Source: Chromohalobacter canadensis
Lineage (GTDB): Bacteria; Pseudomonadota; Gammaproteobacteria; Pseudomonadales; Halomonadaceae
Direction of reading: 5' to 3'
Assembly (NCBI RefSeq): GCF_034479555.1
Contig: NZ_CP140151.1
Span: forward strand, 3,224,001-3,288,000
DNA: 64,000 nt
Shown here: one piece after another, positions 54,808 to 63,656 of the stretch
Numbering within the stretch: the first letter of the stretch is position 1
How the letters are laid out: every line of letters starts with the position of its first letter
Made by a program: the position numbers and the translations under genes
The notes under the pieces: generated by a model
What the model saw: only the letters and a program-made list of their open reading frames with translations
Database searches by the model: none
What the model was told of the DNA's origin: nothing

Positions 54808-56043
54808 ATGGGAATTCGTAATACGCTCGACAAGCTCGAGCCGCATTTTCACCAGGGTGGTAAATACGAGAAGTTCTACGCGCTGTACGAAGCGGTCGAT
54901 ACGATCTTCTATACGCCCCCGGATGTGACCAAAAGCACGGCCCACGTGCGTGATGGCATCGACCTCAAGCGCATCATGATCACGGTGTGGCTGTGTACCT
55001 TCCCAGCGATGTTCTTCGGCATGTACAACGCCGGCCTGCAGGCCAACATGGCGATCGGTGACGGCTTCGGCGCGCTGAGTGGATGGCGTGAAGCCATCAC
55101 CATGGCGCTGGCGGGTAGCCACGATCCCGGCAGCATCTGGGCCAACTTCGTGCTCGGCGCCACTTACTTCCTGCCTATCTATCTGGTGACATTCGCCGTC
55201 GGCGGGTTCTGGGAAGTGCTGTTCGCCGTCAAGCGCGGACATGAGGTCAACGAAGGCTTCTTCGTCACTTCCGTGCTTTATGCGCTGATCCTGCCGGCGA
55301 CTATTCCGTTGTGGCAGGTAGCCTTGGGGATTACTTTCGGGGTCGTGATCGGCAAGGAAATCTTTGGCGGCACCGGCAAGAACTTCCTGAACCCGGCACT
55401 GACCGGTCGCGCTTTCTTGTATTTCGCCTATCCGGCGCAGATCTCCGGCGATAGCGTATGGGTCCCTGCCGACGGTTATACCGGCGCCACTGCGCTCTCT
55501 ACGGCAGCACAGAACGGCATGGGGGCCGTGCAGCAAGCGTACAGCTGGTGGGACGCTTTCCTGGGCTTCATCCCCGGCTCGGTGGGGGAAACGTCGACAT
55601 TGGCGATCCTCATCGGCGCGGTGGTCTTGCTGATCACGCGTATCGCCTCGTGGCGTATCATGCTGGGCGTGTTCGTGGGCATGGCATTGACTGCAATGCT
55701 GTTCACCTCGATTGGCTCTGACAGCAACCCGATGTTCGGCATGCCGTGGTACTGGCATTTCGTGCTCGGCGGCTTCGCCTTCGGGATGGTGTTCATGGCT
55801 ACCGACCCGGTATCGGCATCGATGACGGACCGTGGCAAGTTGCTGTTCGGTCTCTTGATCGGGGTGATGACGGTCTTGATTCGCGTGGTCAATCCTGCGT
55901 TTCCTGAGGGCATCATGCTGGCGATCCTGTTCGCCAACCTGTTCGCGCCGATGATCGATCACTTCTTCGTGCAGGCCAATATCAAGCGCCGCCAGAAGCG
56001 TGATGCCGCGTATTCCACCGCGACAACCGAGGAGACCGCGTGA
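54808..56043 (+). CDS. nqrB: Na+-translocating NADH:quinone reductase subunit B
   Basis: A 411-residue integral membrane subunit with about ten hydrophobic segments that carries covalent FMN and part of the Na+ path. The flavinylation motif DGYTGATAL places FMN on Thr228. A riboflavin-binding role is known for the family. N-terminal [29 protein letters not shown] is typical. The stop overlaps the nqrC start (TGATG). ApbE, encoded downstream, should attach the FMN. Confidence 0.97.
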
Positions 56044-56816
56044 TGGCCAGTAATAATTCCATCAAGAAGACGCTGACGGTCGCACTCGCGCTCTGCATCG
56101 TGTGCTCGGTGGTGGTATCGACCGCCGCCGTGGTCTTGCAGCCTACTCAGCAGAAGAACCAGGAGCTCGATCGCAAGAGCAACATCCTGCAGGTGGCTAA
56201 TCTCTACGAGCCGGGGATGGACGTCGACGATGCGTTCGATGAGCTGATTACCTCGCGTGTGATCAAGCTTGAAACCGGCGAGTACAGTGATCGTTTCGAT
56301 CCGCAAAGCTACGATCAGTTCGATGCCGCCAGAGATCCTGCGACATCACGCACCCTGTCCGGTGAAGAGGACAGTGCGGGCATCGGACGCGAAGAGATGT
56401 ACTCGACGGTTTATCTGGTGGGTGACGATCCCGATGACCCCGAGCAGATCATTCTGCCGATTCGCGGACAGGGCCTGTGGGGGCTGATGCGTGGCTTCTT
56501 CGCCATTGAAGGCGATGGCAATACCATTATCGGGTTGTCCTACTATTCTCACTCCGAAACACCGGGGCTCGGCGGCGAGGTCGACAATCCTCGTTGGAAA
56601 TCGAAGTGGAAAGGCAAGGAAATTTATGCAGAAGATGGCATGAGCCCCGATATCTCCCTGGTCAAGGGCGGCGCCGACAATGAGTATGAAGTCGATGCCT
56701 TGTCGGGTGCGACGCTGACGAGCCGCGGCGTTACCAACATGCTGCATTTCTGGCTGAGCGAGAGTGGCTTCGGCCCATATCTCGCCCGCTTCCACGGCAA
56801 TTCCGAAGGAGCGTGA
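56043..56816 (+). CDS. nqrC: Na+-translocating NADH:quinone reductase subunit C
   Basis: A 257-residue subunit with one N-terminal membrane segment (residues 9-33) and a periplasmic FMN domain. The flavinylation motif [13 protein letters not shown] gives FMN on Thr224. ATG at 56043 overlaps nqrB by one base. nqrD begins two bases after the stop. Confidence 0.97.
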
Positions 56817-56818
56817 AC

Positions 56819-57493
56819 ATGGCTGCTGAGTCCGTAAAAGATGTTGTTCTCTCGCCGGTCTTCAAGAACAACCCGATCGCGCTGCAGGTGCTGGGGATTT
56901 GTTCGGCGCTGGCGGTAACCAACTCCATGAGTGTGTCGTTGGTCATGGGTCTGGCCGTTATCGCGGTCACGGCGTTTTCCAACCTGTTCGTTTCATTGAT
57001 TCGTCAGCATATTCCGTCGTCTATTCGCATCATCGTGCAGATGACCATCATTGCCTCGCTGGTCATCGTGGTCGACCAAGTGCTCAAGGCGTATGCCTAC
57101 GAGATGTCCAAGCAGTTGTCGGTCTTCGTCGGACTGATCATCACCAACTGCATCGTCATGGGTCGTGCCGAGGCCTATGCCATGCAGAACGGCCCCGCCA
57201 TGAGCTTTCTTGATGGGGTCGGCAATGGCCTGGGCTATGCCGTGATCCTGTTGATCGTCGGCTTCTTCCGTGAGCTTTTCGGCTCCGGCAGCGTCTTCGG
57301 CTTCACGGTGCTGACGCCGGTACAGGATGGTGGCTGGTACGTGCCCAACGGCCTGATGCTGTTGCCGCCCTCGGCATTCTTTGTCATTGGTTTGATCATC
57401 TGGGTCATGCGGAGCATTCGTACCGAGCAGATCGAAAAAGCCGAGTACCGGATCGTGGCCAACAGCAAGGCTAAGATTAAGGAGTCCGTGTGA
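56819..57493 (+). CDS. nqrD: Na+-translocating NADH:quinone reductase subunit D
   Basis: A 224-residue membrane subunit of the NqrDE/RnfAE family with six hydrophobic segments. With NqrE it binds a 2Fe-2S centre at the dimer interface; [50 protein letters not shown] contains the conserved Cys. The ATG at 56819 has GAAGGAG upstream; nqrE overlaps by one base. Confidence 0.97.
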
Positions 57494-58113
57494 TGTTCGA
57501 GCATTACCTGAGCCTCTTCGTCAAGGCAGTGTTCGTGGAGAACATGGCACTGGCTTTCTTCCTCGGCATGTGTACGTTTCTTGCCGTTTCCAAGAAGGTT
57601 TCCTCGGCCATTGGGCTGGGGATCGCGGTCGTGGTGGTGCTGACCATCACCGTGCCGGTCAACAACCTGATCCTGACGTACCTATTGAAGGAAGGGGCAC
57701 TGACCTGGACAGGTCTTGAAGGCGCCGAAAATATCGACCTGTCGTTCCTGGGGCTGTTGAGTTATATCGGTGTCATCGCGGCACTGGTGCAGATCCTCGA
57801 GATGTTTCTCGATAAGTTCGTCCCCTCGCTCTATAACGCGTTGGGGGTTTTCCTGCCGTTGATTACGGTGAATTGCGCGATTCTTGGCGCTTCGCTGTTC
57901 ATGGTCGAGCGTAGCTACAACTTCGGCGAGTCGGTGATCTATGGTGCCGGGGCTGGCTTCGGCTGGGCGCTGGCGATTGCGGCATTGGCGGGGATTCGTG
58001 AAAAGCTCAAGTACAGCGACGTGCCGGCCAGCCTTCAAGGGCTGGGGATTACGTTCATTACCGTCGGACTGATGTCATTGGGCTTCATGTCCTTCTCCGG
58101 CATCCAGCTCTAA
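57493..58113 (+). CDS. nqrE: Na+-translocating NADH:quinone reductase subunit E
   Basis: A 206-residue membrane subunit, paralogue of NqrD with inverted topology. It begins [35 protein letters not shown] and carries [47 protein letters not shown], with the Cys residues that share the membrane iron-sulfur centre. ATG overlaps the nqrD stop (TGATG). Confidence 0.97.
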
Positions 58114-58135
58114 GCAACGGAAATAGGAAACCGAC

Positions 58136-59368
58136 ATGGTTGATACATCCATCATCGTGATCGGCGTCGTCATGTTCACCGTGATCGTACTCGGTCTGGT
58201 GGCCGTGATCCTGACGGCGCGCAGTCGTCTGGTCAGTAGTGGCGACGTCTCCATCGAGGTCAATGGCGATCCCGAGAACACCTTGACGACCCAGGCCGGC
58301 GGCAAGTTGCTGCAAACACTCGCCGCCAATGGCATCTTCCTTTCCTCGGCGTGTGGCGGCGGCGGTTCCTGCGCGCAATGCAGATGCCGTGTGGTCGATG
58401 GCGGGGGCTCGATTCTGCCCACTGAGGAGTCTCACTTTACCCTGCGTGAGAAGAAGGAGGGCTGGCGGCTGTCGTGTCAGGTGCCGGTCAAGCAGGACAT
58501 GAAGGTCGAAGTTCCCGAGGAGGTCTTCGGCGTCAAGAAGTGGGAATGCGAGGTCACCGAAAACCCCAACGTCGCCACTTTCATCAAGGAGCTCAACCTC
58601 AAGCTTCCCGAAGGCGAGGATGTGGCTTTCCGAGCCGGGGGCTATGTTCAGCTGGTGGCGCCGCCTTACGATATCAAGTTCTCGGACTTCGATATTGAAG
58701 ATGAGTATCGCGGCGATTGGGACAAGTTCGGCCTCTTTAATATCTCCCACAAGAATGACGAGGAGATCATCCGTGCGTACTCGATGGCTAACTACCCGGA
58801 TGAAAAGGGTATTCTCAAGTTCAATATCCGTATCGCGACGCCGCCGCCCAATACCGACCATCCCCCGGGGCTGATGTCGACGTATGCCTTCTCGCTCAAG
58901 CCGGGTGACAAAGTAACGGTGATGGGGCCCTTCGGTGAGTTCTTTGCCAAGGAGTCCGATGCGGAGATGATCTTCATCGGGGGTGGCGCGGGTATGGCGC
59001 CCATGCGCAGCCATATCTTCGATCAGCTCAAGCGCCTCGAATCGACGCGCAAGATCTCGTTTTGGTACGGTGCTCGCTCCTGGCGTGAGACCTTCTACAA
59101 TGAAGAGTATGACCAGCTGGCCGAGGAGTTCGATAACTTCGAGTGGCACCTGGCGCTTTCCGACCCCCTGCCGGAAGACAATTGGCAGGGCGACACCGGC
59201 TTCATCCATAACGTGCTTTACGAGAAGTACCTCAAGGATCATCCGGCGCCGGAAGACTGCGAATACTATATGTGCGGCCCGCCCATCATGAACGCATCCG
59301 TCATCAAGATGCTGACCGACATGGGTGTAGAGCCTGAAAACATCATGCTGGACGACTTCGGCGGATGA
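58136..59368 (+). CDS. nqrF: Na+-translocating NADH:quinone reductase subunit F
   Basis: A 410-residue subunit that accepts electrons from NADH. Domain order: one N-terminal membrane helix (6-27), a plant-type 2Fe-2S ferredoxin domain with Cys73, Cys79, Cys82 and Cys114, then an FAD/NADH reductase module ([13 protein letters not shown] for [23 protein letters not shown] for NADH, and C-terminal [34 protein letters not shown]). The stop overlaps apbE (ATGA). Confidence 0.98.
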
Positions 59369-60417
59369 GGCCGGCAGCATATTGTGCAGGACCGGTCTGG
59401 AAAGGGCTGGTCCTGTTTGCGTTATTGGTGCTGGTCGGTTGCGATCAATCGCCGCAGGCGCATCGCTTTGAGGGCCCCATTTTCGGCACGGGCTATCATG
59501 TGACCGTCTATGGCGACTTCAGCGACAAGCAACTCGCTTCGCTGGAGAACGGGATCAAAGAGTCGCTCGACGAGGTCGACCACCTGATGTCGACCTATAA
59601 GTCCGATTCGGAGTTGTCGCGTTTCAATGCCGCGCCGGTGAATGAGCCGTTCGAATTGTCCTCGCCCACAGCGAACGTGATCAAAGAGGCTATCGACATC
59701 GGCGATCTCTCGAATGGCGCATTCGATGTCACTATCGGTAGCGCAGTCAATCTGTGGGGCTTCGGTCCCGAGATGCGCCCGGACGAAGTGCCAAGCGATG
59801 ACGAAATCGCCCAGGCGCTGGACAAGGTCGGCTACCAAGCACTGAAATTGAATGGCAATCGCCTGATCAAGACCAAGCCGGTGTATGTCGATCTTTCGGG
59901 TATCGCCAAGGGATTCGGGGTCGACCAAGTGGCGGCTCGTCTGGATGCGCTGGGCGTGACGTCTTATCTCGTAGAGGTCGGCGGCGAGATTCGCACACGG
60001 GGCGCAAAGCCGAATGGCGAGCCTTGGCGAATTGCCGTGGAAAAACCGATTTCTCGGGAGCGTAGCGTACAACGCGTGCTCGAACTCGAAGACGTGGCGG
60101 TGGCAACGTCGGGGGATTACCGCAATTATTATGAGGAAGATGGCCAGCGTTTTTCGCATACCATTGACCCGCGTACCGGTCGCCCGATCACGCATCACCT
60201 CGCCTCGGTGACGGTCGTGGCGGAACGTTGTTCGACGGCGGATGCCTTGGCGACAGCGTTGGAGGTTCTGGGACCCGAGAAGGGCATGGCGTTGGCTAAC
60301 CGCGAGGATATCGCGGCGTATTTCATCGTCAAAAACGATGAGGGTTTCAAGACAGAGCTCAGTGAGGCGTTTCATACCTATCTTGCGGATGAGCCATCCG
60401 AAGGGGAAAAGCAATGA
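59365..60417 (+). CDS. apbE: FAD:protein FMN transferase (ApbE), Nqr-linked
   Basis: A 350-residue lipoprotein flavin transferase that attaches FMN to threonines of NqrB and NqrC in the periplasm. Signal peptide with lipobox LVGC near residue 25; catalytic fold with [60 protein letters not shown] and [21 protein letters not shown]. It overlaps nqrF and nqrM by four bases each, coupling maturation to subunit synthesis. Confidence 0.96.
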
Positions 60418-60671
60418 CACTATGGCTTTTGGTGTTTGCATTGATGCTGTTGCTGCTGGCCGGTATGGCCATCGGCGTCATTCTCGGCCGTAAGCCTATC
60501 GCAGGCTCGTGCGGGGGGCTCAATCAGTTGGGCCTCAAGGAGGGGTGTGACATCTGCGGTGGGAATGACAAGGTTTGCGAAGAAGAGAATCAAAAGCGCA
60601 GCAAGAGTGCGCGTCGTTCCAGCGACGAGAACCGGGGCGCCGACCTCGGTTACGACGCCGTTCGACGCTGA
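60414..60671 (+). CDS. nqrM: Na+-NQR maturation protein NqrM
   Basis: An 85-residue membrane protein with one N-terminal helix (LVFALMLLLLAGMAIGVIL) and a four-cysteine cluster GSCGG...EGCDICGGNDKVC. The family (DUF539) supplies iron for the NqrD/E centre. It is the last gene of the nqr operon, coupled to apbE. A small CGCCC-TA-GGGCG inverted repeat at 60722-60733 may mark the operon end. Confidence 0.95.
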   Translation: MTLWLLVFALMLLLLAGMAIGVILGRKPIAGSCGGLNQLGLKEGCDICGGNDKVCEEENQKRSKSARRSSDENRGADLGYDAVRR

Positions 60672-62388: not shown

Positions 62389-62673
62389 ATGTATCGGGAA
62401 GACAAGCAACATAGCGACGAAACGACGTTCACACTGGGGCGCGAGGAATTGGTCATCCACCGCCGTCATGAATTGGCCAGTACCGTGAACGATCTCTTGG
62501 TGGGGCTGTGGTTCACGATCGGTAGTGTCTGTTTTTTCTATCAAGGAAGTATCAAGGAAGCGGGTATCTGGTTGTTCGTGTTGGGCAGTTTGCAACTACT
62601 GGTTCGCCCGGTGATCCGTTTGCATCGTCAGCTTACTCTCAAGCAGTTGCCGTCCAGTAGTCAGGAATTCTGA
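62389..62673 (+). CDS. YrhK-domain membrane protein
   Basis: A 94-residue protein with the YrhK domain: FTLGREELVIHRRHELASTVNDLLVGLWFTIGSVCFFYQGSIKEAGIWLFVLGSLQLLVRPVIRLHRQLTLKQL, two membrane helices at about 37-55 and 63-78. Function of the family is unknown. A near-perfect AAGGAGG lies seven bases before the ATG at 62389. Convergent with the Tus-like gene, 5 bases apart. Confidence 0.78.
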   Translation: MYREDKQHSDETTFTLGREELVIHRRHELASTVNDLLVGLWFTIGSVCFFYQGSIKEAGIWLFVLGSLQLLVRPVIRLHRQLTLKQLPSSSQEF

Positions 62674-62678
62674 GGCGA

Positions 62679-63539
62679 CTATCGGTAGCGATAGACCCTC
62701 AGGCTGGGCAGGAAGGGCGTGTCCTCGAGTTTCGTGTCGGCGCGTTGGGCGCGGGTGCGCGTGCTGGGTGGTGTCGCCTTCGGGGTGTTGTGCGAAGGCA
62801 GGCGACCGTCCTCGCTGGGAATGAAGAGAGGTAACGGCAGATTCATGGCACGTCGCATGCGCCCATCCGCGAGCGCTTCGCGAAAGAACAGATTGGCGCG
62901 CATGACGGGGGCCTGGGTTTGTACCTGTGCCAATGGCTCGCTATCGGGGATGTCCGCCAAGTGACGTAGCTGAATGCGAATGTGCGGACTCTCGGTATCC
63001 ATTTCCATAAGTCGCCGTTCGGCATCTCGCACGCTCAGTCGCTTGATGGAGCGCCCGCTGGTATACCAAGCGAGACGCACACGCGAAAGCGGTGCATCCG
63101 CCACGGGTAGGTGGCGCCAGCATTGCTTGAGGTGTAGACGCGCCAAGCCTTGGCCGCGTAGATGGTCGTGTAGCGTGGGATGGCGAAAGGGTAGTACGGC
63201 CTTGATTTCGGGGAGCAGGCTCGGTGCATCCTGACGAATCTCGGCCAGTGTCGCCGCGAAGGTTTGCTTGGCGTGATTGATGTCGGCGACGTAGGCCAGC
63301 AATGTGGAGTCGGCCGCAATCAGGCCGATGTAATTGCGCGTCGCGCGACCGTCCTGGCCGTCTTGATACCAGAAGTCGAGCAGTGCATGGCGTAGCCACG
63401 CGATATCGAAAGGGATACCGCCCAGTATCCAGCCCTTCGGAGGCATGTGTTCGACATGGCCGATGAGTGCCTCGCAGGTTTCGATGACATGATCGAAGTC
63501 ATGCTCGAGCCGAGCCAAGAGGTGATATTGTAGCTCCAT
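62679..63539 (-). CDS. tus: Tus-family DNA replication terminus site-binding protein
   Basis: A 286-residue protein that aligns end to end, from my memory of the E. coli sequence, with Tus (309 residues), which binds Ter sites and blocks replication forks from one side. Matches: N-terminal YxLxxRLxxxF (Tus YDLVDRLNTTF); LRH at 49-51; INHAKQTF at 87-94 (Tus INKLKTTF); HDHLRG at 124-129 (Tus HRHLPG, holding His144 and Gly149 of the locked complex); LSRVRLAWYTSGRSIKRLSVRD at 151-172 (Tus ATLRFGWANKHIIKNLHRD); PLAQVQTQAPVMRANLFF and LPLPLFIPSEDG near the end. Lys89 appears as Arg65; Arg198 may be replaced by His186. The ATG at 63539 fits the Tus N-terminus. It is an orphan gene, well diverged. 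Confidence 0.85.
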   Translation of the reverse strand: MELQYHLLARLEHDFDHVIETCEALIGHVEHMPPKGWILGGIPFDIAWLRHALLDFWYQDGQDGRATRNYIGLIAADSTLLAYVADINHAKQTFAATLAEIRQDAPSLLPEIKAVLPFRHPTLHDHLRGQGLARLHLKQCWRHLPVADAPLSRVRLAWYTSGRSIKRLSVRDAERRLMEMDTESPHIRIQLRHLADIPDSEPLAQVQTQAPVMRANLFFREALADGRMRRAMNLPLPLFIPSEDGRLPSHNTPKATPPSTRTRAQRADTKLEDTPFLPSLRVYRYR

Positions 63540-63615: not shown

Positions 63616-63656
63616 AACGTCGGTCGTGGGGGATGGGCAGCGCTTGCTCATGGATG

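Follow-up and report, generated by a model that had tools for sequence, protein, structure and literature searches.

RESULTS

A divergent Tus homologue with oriented candidate Ter sites in Chromohalobacter canadensis

We analyzed a 64,000-nucleotide stretch of the Chromohalobacter canadensis genome (the window; positions 3224001-3288000 of a single contig of 3,595,165 bp), in which a predicted gene for a divergent homologue of the replication terminator protein Tus is directly preceded by a candidate Ter site. Our computational evidence suggests that gene and site belong to a Tus-Ter replication fork trap, a reading to which we assign a probability of about 0.92. A first-pass annotation had already proposed a Tus-based fork trap at this locus, and this interpretation is supported by the predicted fold of the protein and by oriented repeats around the terminus, except for its details at Ile79 and Arg198 (see below).

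At E ≤ 0.001, 685 proteins match the window protein. Among the best 120 of these, most of the named ones are annotated as “DNA replication terminus site-binding protein” and a few as “hypothetical”; the best match (97% identical) is named from C. canadensis. Neither the window protein nor a search of the whole genome gave a match to the Tus family PF05472, a single-sequence phmmer search of the PDB returned only two insignificant matches, neither of which is Tus, and no Tus was found in the PDB with a profile restricted to close relatives. Therefore, a bridge was required, which is provided by a Salinispirillum relative (P0121) that matches the Chromohalobacter protein (P0003) at E = 1.5e-59 and PF05472 at E = 4e-4 (20 bits, slightly below the 22-bit cut-off). 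Since PF05472 is matched by 9 of the 44 members of the window protein's alignment (E ≤ 1; best 1.6e-7), we take the absence of a direct match to mark the limit of that model's reach. Profile-profile comparison with hhalign is significant (96.8%, E = 2.8e-10). The suggested PF05472 check thus fails for the protein itself and succeeds through its aligned relatives.

The AlphaFold model of the window protein (predicted local distance difference test 88, predicted template modeling score 0.80) matches E. coli Tus in Foldseek and VIA. The structural alignment covers 256 residues (model 6-286 against 1ecr 5-309) at 15-16% identity. Consequently, the full-length likeness to E. coli Tus that had been claimed from the sequence is real at the fold level, and spans 174 columns at the profile level. 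Identity with Bacillus RTP was considered and rejected, as the window protein has no RTP domain match in Pfam; the structure comparison with RTP and other proteins gave no comparable rows and alone excludes nothing. Altogether, profiles and the predicted structure confirm the window protein as a divergent Tus homologue.

The cytosine-lock pocket of E. coli, with GC(6), involves Ile79, Phe140, His144, Gly149 and Leu150. Both the hhalign and the MAFFT alignments place Phe140 on His120 and His144 on His124, in agreement with the first-pass annotation. In its proposed lock segment, Gly149 falls on Gly131 (hhalign) or Arg134 (MAFFT), and its pairing of Ile79 with Trp57 and of Arg198 with His186 could not be confirmed because both E. 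coli residues fall in or beside alignment gaps. The His144 equivalent is retained in the Halomonadaceae rows and is Gln in the Salinispirillum type.

The candidate Ter site is repeated around dif with flipped polarity

Upstream regions of tus homologues have the motif GATAACGGTATAA in common near the start codon, and the copy directly upstream of tus is the sole match in the window at up to two mismatches. Its 12-mer occurs no more than 46 bp upstream of the gene, in the same orientation, at 14 of 25 loci (12 exact and 2 with one mismatch), and nine of ten congeneric loci are exact. A vicinal 12-mer copy with at most one mismatch stands beside the tus start in five genera; it is present at only 3 of 31 named relatives' loci, and such a site is therefore not universal. 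In this genome, all 11 sites have G at position 1 of the motif. In the flanks of 34 chosen sites from nine other genomes, A is found at -1 (27/34) and at 0 (29/34), with A or T at position 13, so that the extended candidate site reads A-A-GATAACGGTATA-A/T around an asymmetric 13-bp core.

Genome-wide, the 13-mer has five exact and six one-mismatch matches, where base composition predicts 0.03 and 1.2, respectively. All 11 sites are located within -624 to +201 kb of dif, and their polarity flips there without exception: seven sites to the left are on the minus strand and four to the right on the plus strand. The dif site itself (contig 59969-59990, one mismatch) coincides with the sign switch of the GC skew, and dnaA (contig 1781671) lies nearly opposite, 1.72 Mb away in a genome whose half measures 1.80 Mb. 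The oriented repeats whose existence the first-pass annotation had asked about are thus present, flipping at dif and at the skew switch, far from dnaA. Its statement that the window is near the terminus holds broadly, since the gene is about 368 kb from dif, or about a fifth of a replichore.

To exclude background, two-mismatch sites were dropped: of the 19 (among 20 matches) with flanks to hand, 10 have the right polarity, as chance predicts. Among one-way 12-mers, a motif-free word scan of the 380 kb surrounding dif puts TAACGGTATAAA at the top (6:0), and motif words also lead at 11 and 13 bases.

Motif, polarity and gene location in relatives

We searched 38 relatives with a protein profile, namely 25 Halomonadaceae genomes (including this one) and 13 genomes of the order's other families, and found a tus homologue in 24 of the 25 and 1 of the 13, respectively. 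The exact 12-mer has 2-14 copies in each of the 24 tus-bearing Halomonadaceae genomes, one copy in the Halomonadaceae genome without a tus homologue (G012), and 0-2 copies in the 12 other-family genomes without a profile-found homologue, two of which (G030 and G031) have a distant homologue in the order-wide search described below. A reversed-pattern control gave no copies in 23 of the 24 tus-bearing genomes and two in G017.

On dif-bearing contigs of 22 Halomonadaceae genomes, 113 of 113 sites have the expected polarity. This count leaves aside 46 of the 159 exact 12-mers in the 24 tus-bearing genomes, which are on contigs without dif; dif was not found in G010, and in G014 it is on a contig that has no sites. 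Because congeners share sites by descent, we also counted one genome per genus, with the same outcome (87/87 sites, 13 genera). In the 20 genomes with both sides on the contig, dif lies within the innermost opposed pair of sites, whose members are 23-104 kb apart. The tus homologue lies 173-368 kb from dif and is on the matching strand in all seven genomes in which this can be judged. In G029, dif was not found (at up to 3 mismatches genome-wide and up to 5 within 400 kb), and the skew switch was therefore taken as reference; 4 of 4 exact sites flip there.

G010 has three exact copies, and a variant, G[TC]TAACGGTATA, occurs there six times. G012 contains, with its exact copy, 29 scattered one-mismatch 12-mers against 7 in the reversed control, which are possibly remnants or word bias. 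In the G023 chromosome (L021/L027), the tus frame is broken near the 3' end, the last ~35 positions matching another frame, and 12 oriented exact Ter copies are present despite the interruption, which would reflect either sequencing error or recent decay.

Close tus homologues and the motif co-occur across the order

For an order-wide comparison, 293 genomes were scored for at least three exact copies, with a close homologue defined by E < 1e-50. This copy number is reached by 37 of 42 genomes with a close homologue (the exceptions being G328, G362, G395, G495 and G528), by one of the 29 distant-homologue genomes (G433) and by 2 of 222 without a homologue (G404 and G466). Outside Halomonadaceae, 25 of 30 close-homologue genomes reach it. 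The Fisher p values, uncorrected for phylogeny, are 3e-37 order-wide and 1e-13 outside Halomonadaceae. Sites in G468 run four minus, then two plus, and contig C2 of G335 has two minus sites followed by a single plus site. Relatives are encoded in Marinospirillum, Amphritea, Marinobacterium, Thalassolituus and Natronospirillum, among others.

Some distant tus homologues are preceded by other motifs. At L153-L157 (G519, G480, G435, G459 and G558), the vicinal motif is TTGATAACG[AG][CT]TTATTAAGTG, which is present at 5 of the 6 loci fetched for family f186 and has GATAACG in common with the halomonad Ter. In G519, a loose 14-mer core matches 7 times; every match is on the minus strand and on the left side of dif, and the 109 kb on the other side contain none. 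By eye, GGGG[AG]TGGTATA precedes the distant homologues at L167, L169 and L170 (G390, G323 and G561); it has GGTATA in common with the halomonad Ter, and an inverted copy lies roughly 90-100 bp upstream in G561. Tus-like proteins with PF05472 at 20-27 bits also occur in other Gammaproteobacteria (L030-L035), including genomes of 1.4-1.6 Mb, and one of them (L033) is 30% identical to the window protein over 279 columns.

Gene and neighborhood

The tus homologue is an unbroken frame of 286 codons with an ATG start at 63539, which the open reading frame (ORF) lister stretches to a TTG at 63617 (Table 1). It is flanked on one side by the YrhK-like small protein and a flavoprotein of the pyridine nucleotide-disulphide oxidoreductase type, and on the other by a carbon-nitrogen hydrolase. 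Scanning for promoters near the gene gave no higher yield than shuffles. Elsewhere in the window (54808-60671), an operon resembles the Na+-translocating NADH:quinone reductase. Pfam identifies in it an NqrB-type gene (54808) and a subunit with ferredoxin/FAD/NAD domains (58136); its remaining genes, including an ApbE-like gene, were assigned by eye.

Table 1. Features of the tus locus, in window coordinates
Feature	Position	Strand	Remarks
Predicted divergent Tus (replication terminator protein), 286 aa	62679-63539	minus	ORF; fold and profile match to Tus
Vicinal candidate Ter site GATAACGGTATAA	63542-63554	minus	2 bases upstream of tus start codon
YrhK-like small protein	62389-62673		Between flavoprotein gene and tus; PF14145 (Pfam)

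DISCUSSION

A putative fork trap and its alternatives

We propose that the Tus homologue binds the asymmetric 13-bp site, copies of which flank dif on both sides with the 5' G end towards dif. Forks arriving from oriC would pass these sites, and forks overrunning the terminus towards oriC would meet the G end and stop, possibly with the help of a C(6)-like base-flip lock. In E. coli, TerB lets Tus repress its own gene; the vicinal copy upstream of tus may allow the same here.

Several observations weigh against this proposal. On the protein side, the window protein alone has no match in Pfam (E ≤ 10) or NCBIfam, and its lock-pocket positions are partly altered or depend on the alignment. As for the sites, the vicinal motif is missing at 11 of 25 loci and has T instead of G at position 1 in G004, the tenth congeneric locus; the similarity of the consensus to TerB is no higher than that of shuffles; other one-way words of 9 and 10 bases outrank those of the motif in the motif-free scan; and outlying sites are found in G018 (+850 and +2142 kb) and G023 (-960 kb). 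Across the order, the five exceptional close-homologue genomes have 0-2 exact copies, 28 of 29 distant-homologue genomes have fewer than three, the f186 motif in G519 has one exact vicinal copy with no array within 400 kb, and polarity beyond Halomonadaceae was judged fully in G029 only.

The oriented motif might instead belong to a different terminus system. If it served a KOPS-like FtsK guide or another polar DNA-binding protein, the Tus homologue would use one copy as its operator; KOPS-like words are likewise oriented about dif, and the loci without a vicinal copy would be unsurprising. However, exact copies number only 2-15 per tus-bearing Halomonadaceae genome and are mostly clustered near dif rather than chromosome-wide, the motif stands beside the tus start in five genera, and it goes with the close tus homologue rather than with dif (G012 has dif, no tus and a single exact copy). 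We consider this explanation improbable. It is slightly less probable again that the protein, despite its Tus fold, acts as a transcriptional repressor or a mobile-element factor and has no role in a fork trap: scattered “mobile” tus genes are described in passages of Galli et al. 2019 (PMC6549158), and some distant homologues have a conserved vicinal motif that is unrepeated nearby in the one genome checked, but the gene is present in all Halomonadaceae genomes examined except one, lies 173-368 kb from dif and on the matching strand in the seven genomes that can be judged, and is accompanied by oriented arrays. Finally, chance or strand-composition effects, for which one could invoke leading-strand word bias, the many one-way GC-rich words of the same scan (some higher at 9-10 bases) and the ~1.2 of six one-mismatch sites expected by chance, are in effect already refuted by the excess of exact copies, the uniform polarity with a nearly empty reversed control and the lack of polarity among two-mismatch matches.

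Returning to the Tus-Ter fork trap, we somewhat favor a scenario in which a large branch of Oceanospirillales with Halomonadaceae at its core relies on a chromosomal trap that has a Ter code of its own and a lock that was probably re-built. In this scenario Tus and Ter would have co-evolved into several specificities, since distant Tus branches carry other vicinal motifs. Tus-Ter is a model for polar fork arrest, and with a diverged pair one could ask if the C(6) base-flip lock is a general feature or an enterobacterial peculiarity; the halophile pair could possibly also serve as an orthogonal polar barrier in fork-arrest experiments.

Because a halophile has a distant Tus and oriented candidate stop sites, the fork trap is probably more widespread than reported. 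In passages of Galli et al. 2019, a PF05472 search places resident tus in three groups only (Enterobacterales, Pseudoalteromonas and Aeromonadales), proposed to be three recent domestications from plasmids (PMC6549158), a view repeated in part of a 2023 review (PMC10331603). A trap present in almost all Halomonadaceae genomes examined here, and the same motif in other tus-bearing Oceanospirillales, would contradict this narrow distribution. Under the scenario above, fork traps on chromosomes would go back further and be more common than three such events imply. In the open-access literature, we did not find GATAACGGTATA, Tus together with Halomonadaceae or with Halomonas and replication terminus, Tus with fork trap in Oceanospirillales, or the annotation name paired with Halomonas. 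Public annotation already carries the gene name; the candidate Ter sites and the trap seem to be unreported, provisionally on that literature.

Comparison with known fork traps

The RTP-Ter system of Bacillus, which likewise forms polar barriers at the terminus, is a functional analogue built on a protein family different from Tus. The E. coli system is alike in fold, in a vicinal site upstream of tus on the same strand as the gene, and in the direction in which the sites point relative to dif. Two E. coli Ter cores, TerC and TerB, were checked; both are plus-strand sites lying right of dif, and TerB directly precedes tus. The blocking end in E. coli is the GC(6) end, according to part of the text of PMC8707476; since the G end here and the GC(6) end there face dif, the layouts are equal.

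The differences are in protein and site sequence. The halophile protein, with its low identity to E. coli Tus, is missed by PF05472 (IPR008865) and has a partly changed pocket, and the E. coli core TATGTTGTAACTA and the halophile GATAACGGTATAA look unrelated. The canonical core TGTTGTAACTA was not found in this genome, and the E. coli pattern TNTGTTGTAACTA has 41 two-mismatch matches and none better, 16 of them in the right polarity, which is background only. The expectation of a different Ter sequence is thus borne out by a motif without detectable likeness to TerB. The E. coli G(6)-N6-GTA spacing is present in the new Ter, but it is not claimed, as shuffles match equally well (p = 0.32 for that register and 0.81 over all registers).

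Toft et al. 2021 deal, in the sections consulted, with IPR008865 entries of Enterobacterales and a Pseudoalteromonas outgroup (PMC8707476). The type I and II traps described there are alike in having several Ter per arm with dif inside; their vicinal Ter are 74-83% identical to TerB with C(6) kept (PMC8707476), whereas the halophile sites are not detectably similar. Pseudoalteromonas, Aeromonadales and plasmids also supply non-enterobacterial Tus proteins, which, unlike ours, were found via PF05472, and, as far as that account goes, the Pseudoalteromonas gene lies beside the second-chromosome origin (PMC6549158), whereas the halophile tus is chromosomal and terminus-proximal.
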